Part shown: positions 3,311 to 52,146 of the stretch, piece after piece
Layout: each line of letters opens with the position of its first letter
Position numbering within the stretch: position 1 is the first letter of the stretch
Source: Intestinibaculum porci
Lineage (GTDB): Bacteria; Bacillota_I; Bacilli_A; Erysipelotrichales; Coprobacillaceae
Direction of reading: 5' to 3'
DNA length: 64,000 nt
Assembly (NCBI RefSeq): GCF_003925875.1
Contig: NZ_AP019309.1
Location: forward strand, 3,148,925-3,212,924
The notes under the pieces: generated by a model
Databases searched by the model: none
What the model saw: the letters and a program-made list of their open reading frames with translations, nothing else
Told to the model about the DNA's origin: nothing
Translations under genes and position numbers: made by a program

Positions 3311-5246
3311 ATCGTACCTGTGATCCGTTTGGTAAATCTCCTGGATCAATTACTTTTAAGTCTTTCTTAGTTGTTGAACATAAGATCATCCCCTGTGATT
3401 CCACACCACGTAATTTAGCTGGCTTTAAGTTCTTCACAACCACGACTTTCTTACCGATCATTTCTTCTGGCGTATAGTACTGAGCAATCCCTGAAACAAT
3501 CTGGCGTTTTTCATCACCGATATCAATCTGTTCAACAAGCAGACGATCAGCTTTTGGATGCTTTTCGCAAGCTACAACTTCACCGACTACTAATTCCACT
3601 TTAGCGAAGTCATCAATAGTGATTTCTTCGACTTCGGCGGCTTTTTTCTTTTCTTCTTTCTTTGGCTTTTTAGGCATTAAAGCTTCAACCTTTTTCGCTA
3701 CTTCCGCTGGTTTTAAACGAGCGAATAATACTTCCGGATGATCTGTCACTTTATTCCCTGAATGGTAAGCGCCAAAGTGATCTAACTGCATTAAGTCTCT
3801 TTCATCAGTATTGATCATATCTAAGATCTTCTTAGATGTTGAAGGCATGAAAGCTTCTAAAGCAATCGCCGCAAAGCGAATCGCTTCAATTAAGTTATAG
3901 AGCACAGTAGCTAAACGATCTTTCTTGCTTTCATCTTTCGCTAGTAACCATGGGGTTGTATCATCAATATATTTATTCGTACGTCTTAATAAGACAAAGA
4001 TTTCATCTAAAGCTTTGGCAGTTTTGAATTCATCCATATAGGCATTGACTTTACCTGGCATCGCTAAAGCGATTTGTTTTAATTCATCATCTACCGGTTC
4101 ATAAACATCTTTATCTGCAACCACTCCACCAAAATACTGATTACTCATGGCAATCGTACGGTTGACTAAGTTACCTAAGATATTCGCTAAGTCAGAGTTA
4201 ATTCTTTCGACAACTAAATCCCAGGTAATTGAACCATCGTTATCATAAGGAATTTCATGTAATAAATAATATCTAACGGCATCTACACCAAACATATCGA
4301 CTAAGTCATCCGCATAGATGACGTTGCCTAAATGTTTCGACATCTTAGAATCACCCATTAATAACCAAGGATGACCAAAAACCTGTTTAGGTAATGGTAA
4401 ATCTAAAGCCATTAAGATAATTGGCCAGTAAATCGTATGGAAACGTACGATATCTTTCCCGATGATATGAACATCAGCTGGCCAAAATTTTTCAAATAAT
4501 TCATCATTATTCCCATCAACATCATAGCCTAAACCAGTAATATAGTTTAATAAGGCATCAATCCAGACATAAACAACATGTTTTTGATCAAAGTCTACAG
4601 GAATTGACCATTTAAATGATGTACGAGAGACACATAAATCCTGTAACCCTGGTTTTAAGAAGTTATTGACCATTTCATTCTTTCTTGATTCTGGTTCAAT
4701 AAAATCAGGATGATCGTTGTAGTATTTCATTAAACGATCCTGATATTTTGATAATTTAAAGAAATATGCTGGTTCACTCGCATCAACCACTGGACCGCCG
4801 CAGTCTGGACACATCCCATCAACTAACTGACTTTCCGTCCAGAATGATTCACAGGCTGTACAGTATTTACCTTCGTATTTACCAAGATAGATATCACCTT
4901 TGTCATAAAGCTTCTTGAACGCTTTCTGAACCTGCTTTTCATGATAAGGTTCCGTTGTTCTAATGAACTTATCATAAGACGCATCCATCAAGTCCCAGAT
5001 GCGTTTCACTTCACCAGCGACCTTATCGACATAAGCCTTTGGTTCAACACCAGCTTCTTTGGCTTTGTTTTCAATTTTCTGGCCATGTTCATCAGTTCCT
5101 GTCTGGAAACGAACATTATAGCCCTGCTGACGCTTGTTGCGGACAATCGCATCACTTAATACGATTTCATAAGTATTCCCAATATGGGGTTTTCCTGAAG
5201 CGTATGTGATGGCTGTTGTTAAATAAAAATCTTTTGGATCTTTCAT
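3309..5246 (-). CDS. metG: Methionyl-tRNA synthetase
   Basis: 645 aa cytoplasmic class I aminoacyl-tRNA synthetase that charges tRNA-Met. Visible hallmarks are the nucleotide-binding motif HIGN (residues ~21-24), a zinc knuckle with two CxxC pairs (CTAC...CPDC, ~130-150), the KMSKHLGN loop (the KMSKS equivalent, with His in the last position) and a C-terminal tRNA-binding (EMAP/Trbp111-like) domain from ~540 containing VELVVGEV and VVVVKNLKPAKLRG. A lysine/glutamate-rich linker precedes that domain. The length fits bacterial MetRS with the C-terminal dimerisation/tRNA-binding domain. ATG at 5246 is preceded by GAGGAGG. The gene is monocistronic: its own promoter and T-box leader lie upstream and a strong terminator follows. 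Confidence 0.97.
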   Translation of the reverse strand: MKDPKDFYLTTAITYASGKPHIGNTYEIVLSDAIVRNKRQQGYNVRFQTGTDEHGQKIENKAKEAGVEPKAYVDKVAGEVKRIWDLMDASYDKFIRTTEPYHEKQVQKAFKKLYDKGDIYLGKYEGKYCTACESFWTESQLVDGMCPDCGGPVVDASEPAYFFKLSKYQDRLMKYYNDHPDFIEPESRKNEMVNNFLKPGLQDLCVSRTSFKWSIPVDFDQKHVVYVWIDALLNYITGLGYDVDGNNDELFEKFWPADVHIIGKDIVRFHTIYWPIILMALDLPLPKQVFGHPWLLMGDSKMSKHLGNVIYADDLVDMFGVDAVRYYLLHEIPYDNDGSITWDLVVERINSDLANILGNLVNRTIAMSNQYFGGVVADKDVYEPVDDELKQIALAMPGKVNAYMDEFKTAKALDEIFVLLRRTNKYIDDTTPWLLAKDESKKDRLATVLYNLIEAIRFAAIALEAFMPSTSKKILDMINTDERDLMQLDHFGAYHSGNKVTDHPEVLFARLKPAEVAKKVEALMPKKPKKEEKKKAAEVEEITIDDFAKVELVVGEVVACEKHPKADRLLVEQIDIGDEKRQIVSGIAQYYTPEEMIGKKVVVVKNLKPAKLRGVESQGMILCSTTKKDLKVIDPGDLPNGSQVR

Positions 5247-5261
5247 ACCCTATTCTCCTCC

Positions 5262-5490
5262 TCAAAATAAAAAAAGTCCTCCAGTAAAGGACGACTTCAT
5301 GCGCGGTACCACCTTAATTTGTACATTTGTACACTCTCAATCTCTTAACGCGAGGTACGTCTTCACCTATTAGATGAAGCAGCTCCCAGACCATTTTTCA
5401 AAGCTTTCCTTGCTTATTTCCACCAGCCATAAGCTCTCTTGAAAGGTCCCCTTTGTCTCTTCTGTTCATTGCCTTTACAAATCTACATCA
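5262..5490 (-). promoter_or_regulatory. T-box riboswitch leader of metG
   Basis: On the minus strand the leader carries an AGAGAGC / GCTGGTGGAA stem-I arrangement, the near-invariant T-box sequence AAGGTGGTACCGCG (around 5300-5314) and a terminator (stem of AGTCGTCC with GGAGGACT plus seven T) ending at ~5268, just before the metG ribosome binding site. T-box leaders sense uncharged tRNA. An ATG within the segment at 5388-5398 sits where a methionine specifier codon would be expected, but Met specificity rests mainly on the gene downstream. Confidence 0.93.
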
Positions 5491-9624: not shown

Positions 9625-10099
9625 AAGCCCATCTTGTGAATGGCGCTGCTCCAAACATATTCCAGAAAAACGCCATTGGAAAATTCTTTATTAGTGTCCC
9701 GACAAATACTGCAGGCAGCTGTGATACTGGCACAACACCAGGGATCAAAAAAAATGCCAATGTAGCAAACATACTCATAGAAGGACACATAACCGCAATT
9801 GTCCCAGCTTGTCTCATTAAGACTTTAAAGTAAGCAGGATCATCCTCTTTAGTATGGGTAAGCATAAAATGTTCACCAAATTTATTACCATATAATGATG
9901 ATAAAATAATGACAACAATACCAATCCACAAGATCTCACTCATCGCCGCTGCAAAGACTTTATTCGTCATATTACTAAAGCCACCGGCTTTGAGATCAAA
10001 TCCAAGATTGATAGCACTGTTATAAATTTCCATGCCAAATGCCATCGCGTAAGACATAATCACACCAAATATAAAGCCCTGTTTCTTATTTTCAGGCAT
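9596..10099 (-). CDS. DUF2798-type integral membrane protein
   Basis: 167 aa, four predicted membrane helices arranged as two related halves (IFGVIMSYAMAFGMEIYNSAI and IAVMCPSMSMFATLAFFLI). The opening MPENKKQGFIFGVIMSYAMA resembles DUF2798 proteins, whose function is unknown. ATG at 10099 is chosen because AAGGAGG sits at ideal distance; the frame remains open further upstream to a GTG at 10153, but that stretch forms the leader hairpin. It converges on, and overlaps, the TetR gene. Confidence 0.78.
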   Translation of the reverse strand: MPENKKQGFIFGVIMSYAMAFGMEIYNSAINLGFDLKAGGFSNMTNKVFAAAMSEILWIGIVVIILSSLYGNKFGEHFMLTHTKEDDPAYFKVLMRQAGTIAVMCPSMSMFATLAFFLIPGVVPVSQLPAVFVGTLIKNFPMAFFWNMFGAAPFTRWAFSHVKRFLD

Positions 10100-10106
10100 A
10101 CAAAAA

Positions 10107-10138
10107 ACCTCCTTCTGTACTTGGGTTACAGAGGAGGT
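10107..10138 (-). promoter_or_regulatory. Leader hairpin that encloses the DUF2798 ribosome binding site
   Basis: On the minus strand ACCTCCTCTGTA and TACAGAAGGAGGT form a 12-13 bp stem (one bulge) with a 7-nt loop, followed directly by TTTTT. The 3' arm contains the AAGGAGG ribosome binding site of the gene starting at 10099. It can act as a terminator, an RBS-sequestering hairpin, or both. A possible promoter (TTACGA - 17 - TAAAAT) lies just upstream near 10165-10200. Confidence 0.6.
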
Positions 10139-10240
10139 CTTTTCCAGTTTCACCTACATACGAAGTTATTTTAACACTTGGATCAATTCTTCGTAAGTTT
10201 ATTTTTCAATTACAGAGATTCTTTTTTGAATGATGATGCC

Positions 10241-11311
10241 CTATTTTACATTGATCACCACATATTCCGATGGTGATCCTGTTTTTATTGGGAAGCCCCA
10301 GCCAGCAAGTCCACTTGTTGTGATGGCATGGAAAGAACCAATTGTTTTATTACCATAGCGCATTGATCCTGGCATGAAATCATTTAAATAACCCGTTGGC
10401 CAAATCTGACCACCATGGGTATGTCCACTTAACTGTAAGTCTACACCCTTTTTCGCATTCTTTTGTATTTCTAAGGGCTGATGATCTAACATGATAATAT
10501 ATTGATCTTTATTTACATCTTTAAGTAAATCATCTGTTAATTTACGATCATAGGAAGCATCACGTCTGCCTATGAGTGTAATCTTACCAATATTTTTAAC
10601 ATCATCATCTAGTACAGTAATATGGTTATTTTCCATCGCTGTTCTAATATCACTGGCATTAGAATGAGATCTATTAGATGTATGCCAGTTACCATACTTA
10701 GAATCATCATGATTGCCATAAACATAATAGATGCCTAGTTTATTATGTAATTGACTTAATGCTTTAGTAGCTGCTAGCATGTCTTTCTTCGGTGTATTTT
10801 CATCAAAGATATCGCCATCCAAAACCACTAAATCAGGATTGACCTTATTCATCTTTTGAACTAACCCATTAATTTGTCTAGGATTAAACACCTGATCGGT
10901 ATGTAAATCAGAGATCAGTAGAATCTTTAAGTTATTAATTTTATTACTCTTAATTGTATAATCCGTCTCCACAACATGATGCATGTTGTAATAGCCATAC
11001 CCCATAATCAGACAAACTGCAACCACCGATAACAGTCCACTTTGCAATAACCCCTTTAACATGCCAGCTGGTACAAAATGAGATATTAATCCAAAGACCG
11101 CGCAAGCAGCTAGAAAATAATAATAGAGCACTGCATAGAGTCCTAAGAAATTAACAGCAGGTAAAGCTAATAATACAGCTATTATTGTAATAACAACTTT
11201 AATTGTTATTGTCATATTAATAAAAGAGCCTAAAAATCGTATGATAAAGAATCTTAAATAGATCGATGTCAATAAAGCTGAGACACCACCTATCAAAAAC
11301 AACATGTACAT
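10241..11311 (-). CDS. Membrane-anchored metallophosphoesterase (YkuE/YaeI-like)
   Basis: 356 aa. The N-terminal ~125 residues hold about four hydrophobic helices. The C-terminal calcineurin-like phosphoesterase domain shows the five metal-binding blocks: LISDLHTD, LDGDIFD, YGNHDD, LDHQP and LSGHTHGGQIWP. YkuE/YaeI relatives act on lipid-linked phosphoesters at the membrane, but the substrate here is unknown. ATG at 11311 is preceded by GAGGTGAG. A structured RNA with its own promoter and terminator-like hairpin lies immediately upstream on the same strand and could be its leader. Confidence 0.88.
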   Translation of the reverse strand: MYMLFLIGGVSALLTSIYLRFFIIRFLGSFINMTITIKVVITIIAVLLALPAVNFLGLYAVLYYYFLAACAVFGLISHFVPAGMLKGLLQSGLLSVVAVCLIMGYGYYNMHHVVETDYTIKSNKINNLKILLISDLHTDQVFNPRQINGLVQKMNKVNPDLVVLDGDIFDENTPKKDMLAATKALSQLHNKLGIYYVYGNHDDSKYGNWHTSNRSHSNASDIRTAMENNHITVLDDDVKNIGKITLIGRRDASYDRKLTDDLLKDVNKDQYIIMLDHQPLEIQKNAKKGVDLQLSGHTHGGQIWPTGYLNDFMPGSMRYGNKTIGSFHAITTSGLAGWGFPIKTGSPSEYVVINVK

Positions 11312-11369
11312 ATACTCACCTCATTTTCCATTTTATTGATCTTGTAATATAAGTAAAATGCCTAAAAAT

Positions 11370-11550
11370 AAGAAGAGCTATGCAGATCATGCATAGCTAC
11401 AAATCTTCAAATCGACAGAGATCTCAGTTCAATGATAGTGACAATTAATTTGGAAGCGATCAAGCCTAAAAAAGGCTTAGGAGGAACGAATGCAAAAGCA
11501 TCGTAATCTCTGTCGTTGTTCGGTCAAACAAGTTTAATACTTGTGCCTTA
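11370..11550 (-). ncRNA. Structured RNA of unrecognised class (sRNA or riboswitch-like leader)
   Basis: A clear minus-strand promoter (TTTACA 11578-11583, 16 nt, TAAAAT 11556-11561) starts a ~180-nt non-coding stretch. Folding by eye gives a small hairpin (CAAGTATTAAACTTG), a 10-bp closing helix (CGACAGAGAT with ATCTCTGTCG) holding two internal hairpins (ACGATGC/GCATTCGT and AAGCCT/AGGCTT) and unpaired conserved-looking segments, then a strong hairpin (AGCTATGCA / TGCATAGCT) followed by CTTCTTATTTTT. It ends ~60 nt before the metallophosphoesterase start codon. I could not match it to 6S, SRP, T-box, SAM, TPP, lysine, purine, FMN, cobalamin or c-di-GMP elements. Confidence 0.6.
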
Positions 11551-11695
11551 TAGTTATTTTAACACTATCCCACATATTGTAAAGCGTTTTCATACAATAT
11601 CTTATATAATAATTTTATTACAAATTACATTATAAGACACATCATTTCGTGCATTCTTAATTAATTTATATGCATCAAAGACGAAATAAAGGGTT

Positions 11696-11734
11696 TTTGT
11701 TATCATATGCATTCTACATGCATATGATAACAAA
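11696..11734. repeat. Long perfect inverted repeat (17-bp arms, 5-nt loop)
   Basis: Arms 11696-11712 and 11718-11734 (core TTATCATATGCAT / ATGCATATGATAA) are perfectly complementary around TCTAC. No T-run follows on either strand, so it is not a standard terminator. It could be a cruciform, operator or processing site. Confidence 0.7.
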
Positions 11735-11896: not shown

Positions 11897-11927
11897 ACTT
11901 AGAAAAGTACGAGGTGCGCACTTTTCT
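11897..11927 (-). terminator. Probable pre-crRNA terminator
   Basis: Immediately beyond the most degenerate repeat, AGAAAAGT / ACTTTTCT arms (11901-11908 with 11920-11927) form a hairpin followed on the minus strand by AAGTTTTAT. Its position fits the end of the array transcript; the U-tract is short. Confidence 0.5.
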
Positions 11928-11932
11928 AAAGC

Positions 11933-14900
11933 ATTTGAGAACAGTTCAAAATCACATACCTCTAAAGCTCAAATCTAATGCTAATGGTTCCCTTCCTAAT
12001 TTGGGAGCAGTTCAGAATAACACACCACTAAAACACAAAAAAAGTGAGTCAACCCACATTTTCAGTTTGAGAGCAGTTCAGAATAACACACCACTAAAAC
12101 AATTCAACTCTGTTTTTACTGCCCATAGTAGTTTGAGAGCAGTTCAGAATAACACACCACTAAAACGATTCGGTTTGATGGATGTTTTCCACGCAAGTTT
12201 GAGAGCAGTTCAGAATTACACACCACTAAAACAACCCCATAGCGCTGAATGTTATAGTCGATGTTTGAGAGCAGTTCAGAATTACACACCACTAAAACTG
12301 ACTCGTAGAAAAAAGTTACCAATTAATTGTTTGAGAGCAGTTCAGAATTACACACCACTAAAACTTGTTATGACATGGTTCAGCAGTTGCACCAGTTTGA
12401 GAGCAGTTCAGAATTACACACCACTAAAACCTTTACCGATGCCGTTATAAGGCCTTGCGCGTTTGAGAGCAGTTCAGAATTACACACCACTAAAACTGTC
12501 ATCGTCTGCGATTGTATAGCCGTCTTGTTTGAGAGCAGTTCAGAATTACACACCACTAAAACGCAACAAGAGAGATCGATACAACAGACTGCGTTTGAGA
12601 GCAGTTCAGAATTACACACCACTAAAACTCAGCGCTTGCCATAATTTTTAATGTTGTTGTTTGAGAGCAGTTCAGAATTACACACCACTAAAACGTTGAG
12701 GGCACTCTAAGCGCGGACCGAGTAGTTTGAGAGCAGTTCAGAATTACACACCACTAAAACCATTAGCCCACATCTTCTTAAGAACTACGTGTTTGAGAGC
12801 AGTTCAGAATTACACACCACTAAAACGATCTGCATCAATGTCAAAAGCACCGTGACGTTTGAGAGCAGTTCAGAATTACACACCACTAAAACGAATCAGC
12901 TCCGACAGCCAAAGTATTTCTTGTTTGAGAGCAGTTCAGAATTACACACCACTAAAACTTCAGCGGTAAGACTTACCTGGTCAATCAGGTTTGAGAGCAG
13001 TTCAGAATTACACACCACTAAAACTGACTGTTCCGTCATGTTCCAGCATATTCCGTTTGAGAGCAGTTCAGAATTACACACCACTAAAACGAGTTTGATC
13101 CGCTCAACGTTGAATAACTAGTTTGAGAGCAGTTCAGAATTACACACCACTAAAACTCAAAAGAGAAAAGATCATTAAATCCCTGAGTTTGAGAGCAGTT
13201 CAGAATTACACACCACTAAAACACCTAACGCGTCAATGTTGGGCGCTATCGGGTTTGAGAGCAGTTCAGAATTACACACCACTAAAACACCATCAAGGGA
13301 GCATCAAACATAGAAAACGTTTGAGAGCAGTTCAGAATTACACACCACTAAAACTTGATGTTGTATTTTCCGGATCCATATATTGTTTGAGAGCAGTTCA
13401 GAATTACACACCACTAAAACCGCGCGTATCTCAGCATCTTTTGCTGACATGTTTGAGAGCAGTTCAGAATTACACACCACTAAAACTGAAGTTATCAATA
13501 GATTTACGACTGCGGAGTTTGAGAGCAGTTCAGAATTACACACCACTAAAACACATGACGCGTATCTAAGCACATCGCGCTTTGGTTTGAGAGCAGTTCA
13601 GAATTACACACCACTAAAACTATGGCATTGTTCCATTTTTTTTGCACCACGTTTGAGAGCAGTTCAGAATTACACACCACTAAAACTTTTTGTCCGGCTG
13701 CATTTTGCCGTCTTTTGTTTGAGAGCAGTTCAGAATTACACACCACTAAAACTCGATCCAGGTGCCGTTTGCGTAGCACTGAGTTTGAGAGCAGTTCAGA
13801 ATTACACACCACTAAAACTTTTATAAAGACTTGAGAAGCTGATATTTGGTTTGAGAGCAGTTCAGAATTACACACCACTAAAACGGGTGACTCATGGAAC
13901 AATACAGGCTTCCGGTTTGAGAGCAGTTCAGAATTACACACCACTAAAACGGACATATTCAACAAAAATTCAAAACGCTAGTTTGAGAGCAGTTCAGAAT
14001 TATACACCACTAAAACTCGGTAAGATGAAAAATGCAAGTGGGCTCGGTTTGAGAGCAGTTCAGAATTACACACCACTAAAACTAAGATTTTTTCAACTCC
14101 TTTGAAATCCTTGTTTGAGAGCAGTTCAGAATTACACACCACTAAAACCTAGACAAGAATATCATGTATGCAGATTTAGTTTGAGAGCAGTTCAGAATTA
14201 CACACCACTAAAACAGATCATATCCTTCTAAGATTGCAATCATAGTTTGAGAGCAGTTCAGAATTACACACCACTAAAACCACCCATAGGCTCATCAATA
14301 ACCTCGATTGGTTTGAGAGCAGTTCAGAATTACACACCACTAAAACAAGAGCGTCTCTGGCCTTAAGTACTTCTCCGTTTGAGAGCAGTTCAGAATTACA
14401 CACCACTAAAACCCGTATGCTGGATTAACTGTCTATGAAGCAGTTTGAGAGCAGTTCAGAATTACACACCACTAAAACACGTCATATGATAATCTTATTA
14501 TGCTTTATGTTTGAGAGCAGTTCAGAATTACACACCACTAAAACTGTGATGTTGAAGTTATATGATTTGAGAGAGTTTGAGAGCAGTTCAGAATTACACA
14601 CCACTAAAACCTTCTCCTCTTTCTCTATTTGTAAATGATGGTTTGAGAGCAGTTCAGAATTACACACCACTAAAACTAACCCTGTAACGATATGACCGCC
14701 AATAGAGTTTGAGAGCAGTTCAGAATTACACACCACTAAAACGCGCTTAAAGCTTTAGAACCCATGTCACTAGTTTGAGAGCAGTTCAGAATTACACACC
14801 ACTAAAACAACGTAAATATAAACAATCGTTGTCATTATGTTTGAGAGCAGTTCAGAATTACACACCACTAAAACACCGAACAGGACACGACAGGAACGAC

Positions 14901-14940
14901 AAAAGTTTGAGAGCAGTTCAGAATTACACACCACTAAAAC
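11933..14940 (-). CRISPR. Type II-A CRISPR array, 46 repeats / 45 spacers
   Basis: 36-bp repeats recur every 66 bp (30-nt spacers), except for one 32-nt spacer at 13553-13584. On the plus strand the repeat begins GTTTGAGAGCAGTTCAGAAT and ends ACACACCACTAAAAC. On the transcribed minus strand it begins GTTTTAGTGGTGTG, like other type II-A repeats. Orientation comes from three signs: the repeat at 11933-11968 is heavily mutated and those at 11999, 12065 and 12131 share a T-to-A variant (old, leader-distal end); the leader motif ATTTGAG abuts the right end; and the tracrRNA anti-repeat complements the minus-strand repeat. A single-base variant is also present at 13981. The spacers look unique by eye; their targets and the PAM cannot be read from this window. 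Confidence 0.98.
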
Positions 14941-15088
14941 CTCAAATAAGGTTTTCAAGTCGATTTTCGGCCTTCATTACCGATAGGAAGGACTATAATT
15001 GGCTATTAAACGCATTATATTGGTTTTAAAGGCTACAGTTACCATGCTGTAGGTAATTCAACTGCTTAGGTATGTAACTACTTATAGT
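14941..15088 (-). promoter_or_regulatory. CRISPR leader
   Basis: 148 bp between the csn2 stop and the first (newest) repeat. The sequence touching the repeat reads TTATTTGAG on the minus strand; ATTTGAG matches the leader-anchoring sequence described for spacer integration in type II-A systems. An AT-rich TATAAT occurs within the leader, with no convincing -35 box, so the array promoter is only tentatively located. Confidence 0.75.
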
Positions 15089-15769
15089 TTATATCATACA
15101 TAGGTCATCATCAATAATATATTGATGACAATCTGGTATTAACTCATTGCAATGATTTTCAATGAATAGAACATTCATACATTTATAATTCATGTACTTA
15201 CATAGTTCTTCTATTTCATGTTTTGTGAAATAGCTGAGGCAATTACAAATAATAAGTGGTGTCTTAGGTGTTAACTCTGAGATTAATTCTATGTAATTGA
15301 GGAATGTATCAAACATCGGTTCTTCTGGATCTTTAGTTATTTTTAAGTTAATGGCTTTAAGATATCCTTCCAATGGTAAATCATCATCGAATGAGAAATC
15401 CACATTAAATTCTTCTATGATATCTAGCACGATTTTATTAATGTCTGTGATGTATTCTTTATATTGTAGGAACTGATCACCATCATCTATTAAAATCTTT
15501 GATACTTCTTCATATAATGCTTTAATAATAGGTTTAGCGTTTAAATCTAATTGGAAGGGATTAATGATCAATATAGCTTTTGAGAGGATATCTTTGTCTG
15601 ACTTATCTTCTAATATTTCTATTTCATTTGTTTTATATTTTTCATTAATGATTGCATTTAGTAACTGGACTATATGTGTATAAAGTTTTGTATCTTCAAC
15701 AACTAATTGCGTATTATCACCATGACCAAAATCAATAGGATCATCATAACCCATAATTAAAAACTTCAT
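15089..15769 (-). CDS. csn2: CRISPR-associated protein Csn2 (type II-A)
   Basis: 226 aa, the length of the short (Streptococcus/Enterococcus-type) Csn2 group. Csn2 forms a tetrameric ring around DNA ends and supports spacer acquisition with Cas1-Cas2 and Cas9. Recognised from its position (last cas gene, next to the leader), its size and its pattern: N-terminal beta-rich MKFLIMGYDDPIDF, acidic helices in the middle, and a C-terminal LIICNCLSYFTKHEIEELCKY ... MNVLFIENH segment typical of the family. It marks the locus as subtype II-A. The start codon overlaps the cas2 stop (ATGA), implying translational coupling. Confidence 0.92.
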   Translation of the reverse strand: MKFLIMGYDDPIDFGHGDNTQLVVEDTKLYTHIVQLLNAIINEKYKTNEIEILEDKSDKDILSKAILIINPFQLDLNAKPIIKALYEEVSKILIDDGDQFLQYKEYITDINKIVLDIIEEFNVDFSFDDDLPLEGYLKAINLKITKDPEEPMFDTFLNYIELISELTPKTPLIICNCLSYFTKHEIEELCKYMNYKCMNVLFIENHCNELIPDCHQYIIDDDLCMI

Positions 15770-16086
15770 AATACAATTAACCTCGCATCACTATCTTCTA
15801 CATCAGTTTTTCTTTCACCAACAAGAAATTGAATTTGTGAGTATTGCTTTTCTGTAATAACCAGTAACTCTACATCACCTGCTGATGGTTTATTTTCTTC
15901 TAGCCTTTTGGTTTCAGCCTTTACAATAGAGTTATTTAAAGCTAGTTTTGAATAAACACTTTCCTGCATCATAATGAAGCCTTCTCTAATTAAAAACTTT
16001 CTAAATAACCGATATTCTTTTCTGTTTAAGTACGTCTCTGTAGGCAAATCAAAAAATACAATCATTCTCATGTATCTATAACTCAT
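15766..16086 (-). CDS. cas2: CRISPR-associated endoribonuclease-fold protein Cas2
   Basis: 106 aa from the ATG giving MSYRYMRMIVFFDLPTET, which aligns with the N-terminus of Streptococcus Cas2; an ATG five codons upstream is in frame but less likely. Ferredoxin-like fold with the conserved Asp in FFDLP, followed by RKFLIREGFIMMQESVYSKL and a C-terminal LLVITEKQY / ARLIVL. Cas2 is the structural core of the Cas1-Cas2 integrase complex. It overlaps the cas1 3' end by 11 nt and the csn2 start by 4 nt. Confidence 0.96.
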   Translation of the reverse strand: MSYRYMRMIVFFDLPTETYLNRKEYRLFRKFLIREGFIMMQESVYSKLALNNSIVKAETKRLEENKPSAGDVELLVITEKQYSQIQFLVGERKTDVEDSDARLIVL

Positions 16087-16948
16087 ATTCAAAAAATTCA
16101 ATTAATGATGCGTCTTTCTTTTTTAAAGCATCAAACACGCTTTTATCATAAATAGATATGGCATTTGATACATATTGATTACTGCCTTTAATACGTACTT
16201 TATGATTTAGAACATCGATAAGTTTAAGCTTCAGATCAGAATCAAAAGACTCCTTTGCATTTTCATAGACTATACGATCGACTAACTGTCGAAATGGCTC
16301 CATTAAATCTGATGAAAGATTAAAAGGATTAAATTCATTTTTATGTTTTATGCCTAGTTGTGTTAAATAACCCTGAGCTGCAATATCACGATTAAACTGA
16401 GATAAAATAATGGCATAGCCATAATTGAGAGCTGCATTTACATTGATCTGTGCATCTCTTGTAAACTTCACACCAAACAAACTATCAAAATAAACCTTAG
16501 CAGAATGACCTTCTCTATTGGTTTTATCAAAGGTAACGAGTTCATCCGCATATTGCTTTAACATCTCTGAGGTTTTGAATCCTTCTATTTCTAGTAATCT
16601 AGCCTGATTCAAGATCTTTTCTTTAATAATTCTTGTCCACACCGCTTGTGCGTTCTCTTCATCCCAATTAATTTGTTCGTTGATCCTTTTAGATACATTA
16701 TGGCATCCATAATAGGGGAGTACCTCCCCTATTGGATCCCTTCGATTATCACAAAAGATAATCTTAACCTTTCGGTTTAATAATTCTGCAATTAAGTACG
16801 ACGTAATTGTCACAGCTGTACTATTAATAACCACGGTATTAATCTCAGATAAATGAATTTGATTTACATTTTCACCACGAATAATCATATAGTCATTCTT
16901 ATAAGATAACTTGGCCTTGGAATTAATGACTACTGTACGCCAACTCAT
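16076..16948 (-). CDS. cas1: CRISPR-associated integrase Cas1
   Basis: 290 aa, normal for type II Cas1. Starts MSWRTVVINSKAKLSYKNDYMII. The all-beta N-terminal domain is followed by the helical catalytic domain, with the conserved segments NYGYAIILSQFNRDIAAQGYLTQLGIKH and NPFNLSSDLMEPFRQLVDRIV, which carry the metal-binding Glu/His/Asp-type residues. Cas1 catalyses spacer integration together with Cas2. Its ATG overlaps the cas9 stop (ATGA). Confidence 0.97.
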   Translation of the reverse strand: MSWRTVVINSKAKLSYKNDYMIIRGENVNQIHLSEINTVVINSTAVTITSYLIAELLNRKVKIIFCDNRRDPIGEVLPYYGCHNVSKRINEQINWDEENAQAVWTRIIKEKILNQARLLEIEGFKTSEMLKQYADELVTFDKTNREGHSAKVYFDSLFGVKFTRDAQINVNAALNYGYAIILSQFNRDIAAQGYLTQLGIKHKNEFNPFNLSSDLMEPFRQLVDRIVYENAKESFDSDLKLKLIDVLNHKVRIKGSNQYVSNAISIYDKSVFDALKKKDASLIEFFEYEL

Positions 16949-19900
16949 AATTTAAACTTCTTTCTATATAATCCTGTTACAGAGTCTGCATAAAAGACTG
17001 TCTTAGATAAATCAATCGTCTTACCACCCAAACGACCAATACGATTACTAATCTTAAAATCATCAAAATTAATATTCCCATTTTGTGGACCAGCATGTAA
17101 TGTGATTAAAATTTGGCGAATGACTTCACATCTTTCTTCTAATGAGATAGTTTGGAAATCATCTCGTTTATCAATGAACTTATTTCTAATATTGTTGTAT
17201 GCTGGATAAAGTTTATCCATCTTATCTAACAAAGTATCATAGACATATAAGAGATCTTCATCATTCACTTGATTATACTTCTTGTATTTCTGTGCTTTTT
17301 GGATCTGATCTAAAATCTTCGCTACGTGTTCATTTACACATAACTGTTTTGCCGTAACATATTCCGTTGGGGATGTTACATAATATAAACCACCATCAAT
17401 TTCAATTAACTGATTCTTTAAGATTTCTCTACCGATTTTTACATCAATTAAGCTTTCATTTTCTAATACATACTTTTCTTTTTCTTCATTTGAGGCATGA
17501 CTTAAGTAGATTGGTAACTGTGTTAACTTATCCACTTTAACGACTTTTTTACCTTTTTGTTTATGACCATGGATTTCAAAGATTTGATATTGTAAATTTT
17601 TAAATCCTCCATACTTATGAATATCAGCACGATATTTATTAACTGGTACTGATGCTTCTGTTATCCCCTTATTCGAATGGGCATCATTTGTTACGACTGT
17701 TAAATTAAATAAAACACCATCATTACGTTCTAATTTCTTAGTGATATAAACATCTTTATAGTAAAAACATTTCTTGATTTTACTAATCCATGCAGGATCC
17801 CAAATGGTTTCACCAGTATCTTCATCACAATAAGCATTAACCATACTGTTTAATACAAAGCCATCGTTGTTTCGTTTCTTGGCATCTTTTTTGTAGTTTT
17901 TAAAGTACTGACCATAGATGTATTTGGTATCCAGGTATTTGAAACGACACTTGATATAGTTACCTACTACGCAGGCAATATATGCATCATGGGCATGATG
18001 ATAATCATTCAAATCACGGCTCTTATAAATGTCATAACGTTTTCTAAAATCATGAGAGATATTAGCTCTGACTGTTCTTACATCCGTACCTTTATAATGA
18101 TTCATAATGATATTCGCAACATTTTTAATAATCTGTCTGGTTTCTACTAACTGGCGATTAATAAAACGTTCCTGATCTTTTTCATTGTATTCAGTTTTAA
18201 TCAAATTAAAGAATTTCTTCTTACTAATCAGTTTATTCTCTAAGAGTTTCGTCCAAAAACCAATCATCTTATTTCGAACTTCTGCTGGAACGGTTGGCTG
18301 ATCTAACTTAAACTGATTTTCTTCTGGTAACACTAATACTCTATTATCAAAGCTATCATCTTTAATCAATGACTGTGGGATAATATGGTCAATCTGATAT
18401 GTATCTAACTTATCAATATCTAGCGGTTTACCAGAGTACATAGATTTACCCATTTGGGTGTAATAGAGATATAAAGCATCGGTATTAATTTTCTTGTCAT
18501 CTTCATTATTAAGTGACTTATACACTTCTTTATCTTTTTCAGTTTCTAAATCTAATTCTCTATAAATAGCCTGTAATCTCTTAATTTGTGATGTCGTTCT
18601 AACCTTTTCGCCTTCTTCTCTAGCAAACTCAATATAAATATTTGTTGGACGATGCTGCATATATTTCGTGATCTCTTCAACAATCATCAATGACTGCCAA
18701 ATACCACGTTTTAATGCTGGTGAACCTGCTAACTTTTCCACTTCTTCATAAGTAAATGGTCCATCTTCTTCTTTTTCATTAGCTGCATCAATGATCTTGT
18801 TAAAGCCATACTTATCATCATTAATAATTTCCATTAAGTTATGATTTGTATTCTCTAAGATATCCATAACTGTTTCATTATGATTTTTAGAGCGAATGCC
18901 TAATAACAGTTTTCTTGATAAACGAGACCAGTCTTTATATCTTAATCGCATGATTTGTTCAATCTGATCATGATCAAGATGATAGTTATTTTGTAATCTT
19001 CTCTTCAAAATCTTCTTATCTTCAAAGATTGTCAAATCAAAGATAATGGACTCAATGAGATCATAGTTATCTTGATTGATCTCACCAAAGATCTTTGTAA
19101 AATCAATCCATGGTGTTAAAGAGGTGGAAAACTCATCTTCTTTCTGAAAGCCTGTAATCTCTAATTCATCTGAAAGCTTATAGACCTGATGAGCTTTTAA
19201 CCATCCATCTAATTTCTTTCTTGTCACCTTCTTATTATTCATGAATAAATCATCTAAAATTGATTTTTTAATATCTGGTTTGATCTTTTTACCATTAACA
19301 CGAATCTTATTTAATTCATTCAAAACTTCAAATCGACTAATTGTAAGGGACATTTTAGGTAATACTTCTTCATCAGGGAAGTAAGTACAATAGCTTAACA
19401 TTCTTTTGATAAAGCCTTCAGCCGTAGCATCGATATCAATAACTTCATTCGCATTCCATGGATGAATACGTTCATTTTCCTTACCTTCTACCTTTTTAAT
19501 CCAGGCAAATGGACTATTACTATTTAATGGGCCAACATAATATGGAATGCGATAAGTAAGAATAGACATCAGTTTATCCTTATTTTCTGCTAAAAGAGGA
19601 TAAAACTCAGCCTGATGATCAATAATCTGTTCCATTTCATATTCCTGCATCTGATAAGGAACAGCACCATTAGTACGTGAATTCTGTTTTACCAGGAAAG
19701 TTTCTAAATCCATTTTTTCTTTGATTGTCTGTGCATCTTCCGTATTAACATTTTTTAACAGATTCTTAATATATTTATAAAAATCTTCAACGGATGTCTT
19801 TCCCGGATGACTCATATAGCCGGTATAATTATGGAGCTTTTCACCATCTTTTCTAAACACTTCATTATAGCAATCAGGTAAGCTTTCTTTGACAACCTTT

Positions 19901-20940
19901 TTCAGTAAAAGTAAGTCATTTTTAAAATCATCATAACGTGATACCATTGCCTCAGAAATTGAAGGGTTTTCCGTATGTGAAGCACCTAAGATAGCCTGTA
20001 ATTCTACCCAGCTATAAATATCATGTAAAGCTACAATAAATTCAATAGATTCCCCTAACTCCGCTTCATTCTCCGCTAAGTTAGCATCATAATTTGCATC
20101 ATCAAATTTTAAAGAAATTGCTTTTCCATCTTTATTAATATCTTTTGCCGGAAGCAGTTTTGTGACATTAAACTGTAAGCCAACCAAAGCATTCGCTAAT
20201 TCCTTATAAATGGCTTTATCCTTTTTATCAAAGATAAACGTATTGACAATTTCATCTCTCTTTTGGCTTCTTTGTTTGGTCTTCTTTAACAATTCCACTA
20301 ATAACTGAACATGTTCATCATCTAAATTGTTTTCAAATTCATTAAGATCAAAGAACTGTTCTAACGCTGCATAGATTTTCTTCTCAATATCAGCACTATC
20401 CATATTGAAGGAATGTCCCTCATACAAGAAATTGCCTCTATATTTTACAATATGGTGTAAAGCTAAATAAATCAGTCGCGGATCTTCTTTCTCCGTTGAT
20501 GTCATCAAATGTTTTCTTAAGTGATAAATCGTTTTGTACTTTTTATAGTAAGTCTGATCATTAAAGGTATCATCAATAAATAAGTTATACTGATTTTTTA
20601 CTTCAAAACCATTTTCCTGTCCAATTTTTTCTTTATCTTCCCGATCTAAAAAGGAAGAATGGGTTAAACGGATATAAAAAGTTGGATCAACCTCTGCAAT
20701 CATTGATTCCATAATACCCTGTAATAATCTAATACGTTCACGACGCTTGTTATATCTTCTTCTAGCAGAACGGCTTAAACGTCTCTCTGATGCAGGATTA
20801 GCCTGTTCAAACAAACGTGATCCCCACATATGATGATTATCTTTTTTAAGTAAGTTGTAATGAGAGTCCATGACGGCCCATCCAACAGAATTGGTTCCAA
20901 TATCTAATCCAATGCTATAACTTGTATCTTTTTTGTTCAT
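16945..20940 (-). CDS. cas9: Type II-A Cas9 endonuclease
   Basis: 1331 aa from ATG at 20940, about 10 nt after GGAGG; an in-frame ATG at 20958 precedes that RBS and is unlikely. Effector nuclease guided by the crRNA:tracrRNA duplex. All nuclease residues are present: RuvC-I Asp13 (SIGLDIGTNSVGWAV), arginine-rich bridge helix (RRLSRSARRRYNKRRERIRL), RuvC-II Glu771 (IYIEFAREEG), HNH His852 (YQIDHIIPQS) with Asn875, and RuvC-III His982/Asp985 (YHHAHDAY). The C-terminal PAM-interacting region ends SVTGLYRKKFKL and lacks the Arg pair used by Streptococcus pyogenes Cas9 to read GG, so PAM preference probably differs. Size and HNH context are close to the Kandleria/Catenibacterium/Streptococcus branch. 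First gene of cas9-cas1-cas2-csn2, all translationally overlapping. Confidence 0.98.
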   Translation of the reverse strand: MNKKDTSYSIGLDIGTNSVGWAVMDSHYNLLKKDNHHMWGSRLFEQANPASERRLSRSARRRYNKRRERIRLLQGIMESMIAEVDPTFYIRLTHSSFLDREDKEKIGQENGFEVKNQYNLFIDDTFNDQTYYKKYKTIYHLRKHLMTSTEKEDPRLIYLALHHIVKYRGNFLYEGHSFNMDSADIEKKIYAALEQFFDLNEFENNLDDEHVQLLVELLKKTKQRSQKRDEIVNTFIFDKKDKAIYKELANALVGLQFNVTKLLPAKDINKDGKAISLKFDDANYDANLAENEAELGESIEFIVALHDIYSWVELQAILGASHTENPSISEAMVSRYDDFKNDLLLLKKVVKESLPDCYNEVFRKDGEKLHNYTGYMSHPGKTSVEDFYKYIKNLLKNVNTEDAQTIKEKMDLETFLVKQNSRTNGAVPYQMQEYEMEQIIDHQAEFYPLLAENKDKLMSILTYRIPYYVGPLNSNSPFAWIKKVEGKENERIHPWNANEVIDIDATAEGFIKRMLSYCTYFPDEEVLPKMSLTISRFEVLNELNKIRVNGKKIKPDIKKSILDDLFMNNKKVTRKKLDGWLKAHQVYKLSDELEITGFQKEDEFSTSLTPWIDFTKIFGEINQDNYDLIESIIFDLTIFEDKKILKRRLQNNYHLDHDQIEQIMRLRYKDWSRLSRKLLLGIRSKNHNETVMDILENTNHNLMEIINDDKYGFNKIIDAANEKEEDGPFTYEEVEKLAGSPALKRGIWQSLMIVEEITKYMQHRPTNIYIEFAREEGEKVRTTSQIKRLQAIYRELDLETEKDKEVYKSLNNEDDKKINTDALYLYYTQMGKSMYSGKPLDIDKLDTYQIDHIIPQSLIKDDSFDNRVLVLPEENQFKLDQPTVPAEVRNKMIGFWTKLLENKLISKKKFFNLIKTEYNEKDQERFINRQLVETRQIIKNVANIIMNHYKGTDVRTVRANISHDFRKRYDIYKSRDLNDYHHAHDAYIACVVGNYIKCRFKYLDTKYIYGQYFKNYKKDAKKRNNDGFVLNSMVNAYCDEDTGETIWDPAWISKIKKCFYYKDVYITKKLERNDGVLFNLTVVTNDAHSNKGITEASVPVNKYRADIHKYGGFKNLQYQIFEIHGHKQKGKKVVKVDKLTQLPIYLSHASNEEKEKYVLENESLIDVKIGREILKNQLIEIDGGLYYVTSPTEYVTAKQLCVNEHVAKILDQIQKAQKYKKYNQVNDEDLLYVYDTLLDKMDKLYPAYNNIRNKFIDKRDDFQTISLEERCEVIRQILITLHAGPQNGNINFDDFKISNRIGRLGGKTIDLSKTVFYADSVTGLYRKKFKL

Positions 20941-20944
20941 CTTC

Positions 20945-20973
20945 TTGACAACCTCCATAATTTCGACTAAGCT
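20945..20973 (+). promoter_or_regulatory. tracrRNA promoter, antisense to the cas9 5' UTR
   Basis: Plus-strand TTGACA (20945-20950), 17-nt spacer, TAAGCT (20968-20973); predicted start ~20980, just before the anti-repeat. It lies only 5 nt from the cas9 start codon and overlaps the cas9 ribosome binding site region on the opposite strand. Confidence 0.75.
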
Positions 20974-20979
20974 AAATAT

Positions 20980-21072
20980 GTAGTCTGAAAGCAGTTCAGA
21001 ATTACATACCGAGTTAAAATAAAGCTTATGCTTAAATGCCAGCTTGCTGGTGCCATTTAGATGGCTTTTTTG
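20980..21072 (+). ncRNA. tracrRNA
   Basis: The anti-repeat (20983-21020) pairs with almost the whole minus-strand CRISPR repeat, including 21 consecutive pairs from GGTGTG to CTGCT. The bulge next to GAGTTAAAAT is laid out like the S. pyogenes bulge region (AAGTTAAAAT). Downstream come a short nexus hairpin (AAGC-TTAT-GCTT, 21022-21033), a second hairpin (GCCAGC/GCTGGT, 21038-21051) and a terminator hairpin (GCCAT/ATGGC, 21052-21065) with six T. A back-up terminator (TGTTGC/GCAGCA plus seven T) follows to ~21098. Confidence 0.93.
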
Positions 21073-51931: not shown

Positions 51932-52146
51932 TAAAAAAACAATAGCGCAAGCTATTGTCATACGTTCAGGTATTTTCAATAGCTCTCCACAAGATGTCTT
52001 GTGACAGTGAGATAGATATTCTCTAGCCCACCAGTTAGCCAAACCATGCAGAACCTGACTCCTTCGGCAATCCTCCTCCTTCAATATCTGGCTGCACCCA
52101 TTTATATAATACTGAATTCATAGTCCTTGCGCCTCTATTTGAGCTT
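51932..52146 (-). promoter_or_regulatory. Lysine riboswitch (L-box) with terminator
   Basis: Minus-strand leader starting ~52140 contains L-box core segments AGAGGCGCAAGGACTAT and GGATTGCCGAAGGAGTC, plus the closing AGAGCTATTG. It ends in a terminator ACAATAGC-TTGC-GCTATTGT followed by seven T (51933-51958), about 20 nt before the first gene. Lysine binding is expected to favour termination. Controls the ACT-dapA-dapB-lysA operon. Confidence 0.93.

Follow-up and report, generated by a model that had tools for sequence, protein, structure and literature searches.

What kind of RNA is encoded in front of the membrane phosphoesterase gene of Intestinibaculum porci, and does it act on that gene? 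A sequence-only reading of the 64,000-nucleotide stretch of DNA analysed here (the window) had described an unclassified structured RNA that resembles a riboswitch, with a free-standing sRNA as the alternative. From comparative sequence analysis, we conclude that the RNA is probably a control element for the phosphoesterase gene. The reading that we favour, a structured 5' leader of the attenuator type, is given a probability of about one half. The features needed for the argument are listed below in the direction of transcription; the homolog is that of a second species of the genus.

11579..11592, minus strand: LacI/CcpA-type operator TGAAAACGCTTTAC, overlapping the -35 box, identical in the homolog
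11583-11556, minus strand: sigma-70-type promoter TTTACA-16-TAAAAT with TG before the -10 box (extended -10), score 10/12
11413..11515, minus strand: conserved RNA core of 103 nt, closed by helix P1
11505..11515, minus strand: 5' arm of P1, CGACAGAGAUU, 100% identical in both species
11486..11504, minus strand: P2 hairpin ACG-AUGC-UUUU-GCAU-U-CGU, whose inner stem is ACACA/UGUGU in the homolog
11480..11486, minus strand: CU-rich segment UUCCUCC, invariant, between P2 and P3
11461..11479, minus strand: P3 hairpin, 7 bp in I. porci, partly kept in the homolog
11424..11460, minus strand: long conserved, largely unpaired segment AUCGCUUCCAAAUUAAUUGUCACUAUCAUUGAACUGA, with 0 substitutions and two small indels against the homolog
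11413..11423, minus strand: 3' arm of P1, GAUCUCUGUCG, 100% identical in both species
11376..11398, minus strand: terminator-like hairpin AGCUAUGCA-UGAUC-UGCAUAGCU, missing in the homolog
11363-11375, minus strand: U-rich tract after the terminator-like hairpin
11317..11322, minus strand: Shine-Dalgarno (SD) sequence GAGGTG of the phosphoesterase gene
10241..11311, minus strand: gene of a membrane calcineurin-like metallophosphoesterase of 356 aa (Pfam PF00149, E 2.2e-17)

The good promoter noted by the sequence-only reading is borne out by the motif listed above, and transcription would start at about 11549. The predicted 190-nt transcript folds with -51.8 kcal/mol (z -4.0), and only one of 200 shuffles folded equally well. 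The core gives z -4.5 in I. porci and z -3.0 in its homologous counterpart. The closing helix, described earlier as 10 bp, was found as CGACAGAGAT/ATCTCTGTCG with 11 pairs when the terminal U-G is counted, and both hairpins of the proposed multi-branched interior, P2 and P3, are predicted from the window sequence. Once P1 is left out, the stability of the interior is ordinary (z -2.0 in I. porci, 0.0 in the homolog), so most of the folding signal is carried by P1. The UUCCUCC segment is unpaired in the predicted folds of both species. The two-species comparison gave no conserved upstream reading frame, the frames being disrupted by indels.

Among 60 related genomes, the sole convincing match came from the other species of the genus, on contig ONFH01000310.1 of the uncultured Erysipelotrichaceae bacterium RUG246, a rumen MAG (79% identity over query positions 20-142, E 1.2e-23). 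It has the same place and strand, behind the same promoter and immediately ahead of the membrane phosphoesterase ortholog, which is 54% identical. The two cores share 90% of aligned bases (81% of all alignment columns); for comparison, four-fold-degenerate sites are 33% identical in the phosphoesterase gene and 40% in metG, and shuffled cores 50% (maximum 58%). As 90% in the core stands against 33-40% at four-fold sites, the comparison indicates that the core is under strong selection. No change is seen in either P1 arm, in CGUUCCUCCUAAGC, in UUGAUCGCUUCC or across most of the 3' strand.

An alignment with homologs had been suggested as a way to find compensatory changes, and its outcome was divided. 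The inner stem of P2 was swapped from AUGC/GCAU to the sequence of RUG246 with pairing maintained, but P1 and the base of P2 showed zero variation in the pair counting and P3 is only partly kept. MAFFT did not align the two P2 inner stems with each other, and the counting was therefore limited to P1 and the P2 base. Judged from these two sequences, covariation is thin and confined to the inner part of P2; with P1 and the P2 base invariant in a sample of two, the fold is unproven by covariation.

The region had no match in Rfam 15 at gathering scores, and at E<=10 there were five, all at chance level (E 3.6-7.5) and four from eukaryotic families. A phosphoesterase-associated motif is not mentioned in the main text of the papers on new structured RNAs that were consulted. 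The description as an unclassified structured RNA, placed as the leader of the gene in both species, is supported: Rfam has no match and the fold is better than chance. The sequence-only reading had named a known RNA such as 6S as the identity that would speak against it; 6S RNA (RF00013) had no match at this locus. Two 6S RNA candidates were seen at other places in the same genome, 2887681-2887789 (minus strand) and 1584143-1584304 (plus strand), one over and one under the gathering score. The window also holds a T-box leader before metG (5284-5478, minus strand) and a lysine riboswitch (51972-52145, minus strand), both over the Rfam gathering score.

A covariance model was built from the two sequences and run on 39 other genomes of the family, 395 of the class and 392 of the phylum, which are overlapping samples. 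It gave one copy per genome in each of the two species of the genus and nothing convincing in the family, class and phylum sets, where stricter filters were used and weak matches may be lost. The best weak family matches (25.8 bits and below) did not retain P1 together with several conserved strands, and the best BLAST fragment elsewhere was short and 71% identical. A pattern scan of GTDB contigs returned the known MAG and three unrelated matches in other phyla, no more than expected by chance; the same kind of scan of viral contigs returned none, and the element had no phage or plasmid match. It is missing before the orthologous phosphoesterases of other genera that have readable upstream DNA. 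For the closest of the orthologs in other genera, at 51% identity, only 114 nt of upstream DNA remain on the contig, and the search returned no copy of the RNA from the rest of that genome. The element seems to have arisen within the genus, or to have diverged past recognition elsewhere.

The promoter is shared by RUG246, with the -10 box conserved and the -35 box conserved at 5 of 6 bases. New here is the predicted LacI/CcpA-type operator that overlaps the RNA promoter and is conserved in both species. The core of TGAAAACGCTTTAC matches cre, and its final CA is one base off the classical cre. In RUG246 the same or nearly the same sequence stands before ppdK-, scrB- and galE/galT-like genes, which we take from their sequences to be sugar genes, for pyruvate phosphate dikinase and sucrose-6-phosphate hydrolase in the first two cases and galE/galT in the third. 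Near-matches to the operator number 10 against 4 for a reversed-pattern control in RUG246, and 6 against 13 in I. porci, where there is no excess over the control. Both genomes encode a CcpA-like protein, the best at 255 bits, under the 442-bit family cut-off. Because the count in I. porci is not above the control, CcpA is a regulator that we infer for this operator. Since the -35 region is overlapped by an operator of this type, synthesis of the RNA is probably under carbon control.

In I. porci, a CRISPR-Cas locus of about 9 kb, absent there in RUG246, separates the RNA promoter from an aldehyde dehydrogenase gene; in RUG246 the aldehyde dehydrogenase gene is the next one upstream, with no CRISPR locus in between. 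The locus is of type II-A and looks complete (window 11950-21010; csn2, cas2, cas1, cas9; 41 exact repeats), and degenerate CRISPR repeats lie near 11930-12140. The stretch from the RNA promoter to the CRISPR array holds two more strong terminator-like inverted repeats, at 11696-11734 and 11898-11930. Terminator-like sites in the region number 3, against 0.3 expected.

Behind the core the two species differ. The terminator-like hairpin that the sequence-only reading had placed before the phosphoesterase gene is present in I. porci, its end 65 nt from the ATG (11311). A weak promoter-like site at 11357-11330 makes a separate drive of the gene possible in this species. In RUG246 the ATG is 25 nt past P1, with a U-tract directly behind P1 and the SD AAGGAGG about 10 nt past it; as 25 nt leave no space for another promoter, the RNA belongs to the leader of the phosphoesterase gene there. 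The downstream parts are thus a hairpin and a U-tract in one species and a U-tract and a strong SD in the other. A U-rich run, UUAUUUUUA, is common to both, close behind P1 in RUG246 and behind the hairpin in I. porci, as though the space between P1 and the tract had gained or lost a hairpin.

Attenuator leaders show just this combination of a conserved core and a downstream part that can be exchanged, and for this reason a cis-acting leader is favoured. It is supported by the occurrence of the RNA before the orthologous gene, at the same position, in both species examined, by the conservation of the core and by the replaced but still paired inner stem of P2; the absence of the element before the orthologs of other genera, the weak promoter-like site, the thin covariation and the ordinary stability of the interior count against it. 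Under this reading, transcription would start from the promoter that the operator overlaps and the nascent RNA would fold into the multi-branched domain closed by P1. The conserved unpaired strands would probably bind a metabolite, an ion or a protein, and folding or binding would set whether RNA polymerase or the ribosome enters the gene. The decision would be made by the terminator hairpin in I. porci and by the U-tract or SD directly behind P1 in RUG246.

A hairpin of another kind was seen in the leader of the next gene, which encodes a two-TM-like protein (MPENKKQGF...) with no Pfam match. The hairpin, ACCTCCTCTGTA-ACCCAA-GTACAG-A-AGGAGGT (window 10099-10200, minus strand), is followed by TTTTTT and the ATG; it is terminator-like and contains the SD itself. 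At the same leader in RUG246 (about 4440-4480 of its contig, minus strand), GTACAGAAGGAGGT is kept and the upstream ACCTCCT half is not.

The rival that survives best, possible although we consider it unlikely, is a free-standing, catabolite-controlled sRNA of about 150-190 nt that ends at a terminator and blocks the ribosome binding sites of other mRNAs through UUCCUCC, the phosphoesterase gene being a neighbour or reached by read-through. It would account for an own promoter with a LacI/CcpA-type operator, for the terminator-like end in I. porci and the bare U-tract directly after P1 in RUG246, and for a CU-rich segment that is invariant and unpaired in both predicted folds. In Staphylococcus aureus, RsaI is repressed by CcpA and pairs with SDs, and RsaE has been proposed to work via a UCCC motif (PMC9266662). 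The sequence-only reading had suggested that TTCCTCC pairs with the SD of the phosphoesterase gene. The motif is present and invariant, but the pairing with GAGGTG is weak (-5.2 kcal/mol) and 43 of the window's 54 predicted starts give a stronger pairing, many SDs a far stronger one (down to -15.2 kcal/mol), which fits an sRNA; however, any anti-SD-like motif pairs with SDs, and target energies prove little.

In RUG246, the SD AAGGAGGU could pair with CCUCCU, and the segment reaches -10.3 kcal/mol with the phosphoesterase SD, sharing second place among 13, which is what a strong SD would give. A switch between UUCCUCC and the phosphoesterase SD was set aside, being weak in I. porci and accounted for by SD strength in RUG246. 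A P0 helix between the 5' segment and the SD region behind P1 was also set aside; it is borderline in RUG246 (31 of 500 shuffles as good) and was not seen in I. porci. Against the sRNA, the gene of RUG246 begins so close behind P1, with no other promoter, and the element keeps company with the same gene in both species. The strict conservation of P1 and of the 37-nt strand outside the CU motif also exceeds what a seed would need. The two readings are not exclusive: a leader terminated by attenuation could double as an sRNA.

The RNA may be a new riboswitch class of one genus of Erysipelotrichaceae-like gut bacteria, with a ligand tied to the substrate or product of the phosphoesterase and with control acting on transcription in one species and through the SD or a U-tract in the other; we put this forward as a candidate identity and consider it rather doubtful. 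Still more improbable is a leader bound by a protein, autogenously or by an RNA-binding regulator, instead of by a small molecule. P1 is identical in sequence and not merely in pairing while synonymous sites are near saturation, which fits sequence-specific recognition, and the element is restricted to the genus, as is common among protein-binding leaders; but there is no candidate protein or recognised protein-binding motif, and the product of the downstream gene is not an RNA-binding protein. A mobile inverted-repeat element or other DNA-level feature (suggested by terminal inverted repeats of 10-11 bp), the tracrRNA of the adjacent type II-A CRISPR-Cas locus directly upstream, and a divergent 6S RNA have next to no chance and are taken as refuted, since the element is single-copy per genome at an orthologous place with no phage or plasmid match, the RNA core holds no anti-repeat to the CRISPR repeat (that sequence lies next to cas9, at 20990-21006) and RUG246 has the RNA without CRISPR there, and the 6S matches are elsewhere in the genome.

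We regard the element as real, under strong selection and uncatalogued, a leader or a small RNA found in one genus. Should it prove to be a riboswitch, the ligand would hint at what a widespread family of membrane phosphoesterases acts on, and the enzyme would be tied to sugar status by the carbon-type operator. Should it prove to be an sRNA, this lineage would have a candidate for a regulatory RNA under carbon control, for which we know of no characterised example. Either way, it is a candidate orphan conserved RNA absent from Rfam 15.

Like 6S RNA (RF00013), the element is about 180 nt long and has a helix that closes off a large open interior, but it gives no 6S match and has no long terminal hairpin. 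It shares with RsaI a catabolite-type operator at the promoter, and with RsaI and RsaE an unpaired CU-rich stretch that can pair with SDs (PMC9266662); unlike these sRNAs, it has no Rfam sequence match, has a strong 11-bp closing helix and lies 5' of the same gene in both species. Riboswitches and attenuator leaders differ from it in that here there is no Rfam family match, there are only two representatives, P1 is invariant and the element is known from sequence alone. It is like them in its promoter, in a multi-branched domain closed by P1 with conserved unpaired strands, in the terminator or SD that then follows before one gene, and in a core that is kept across species with differing downstream parts.
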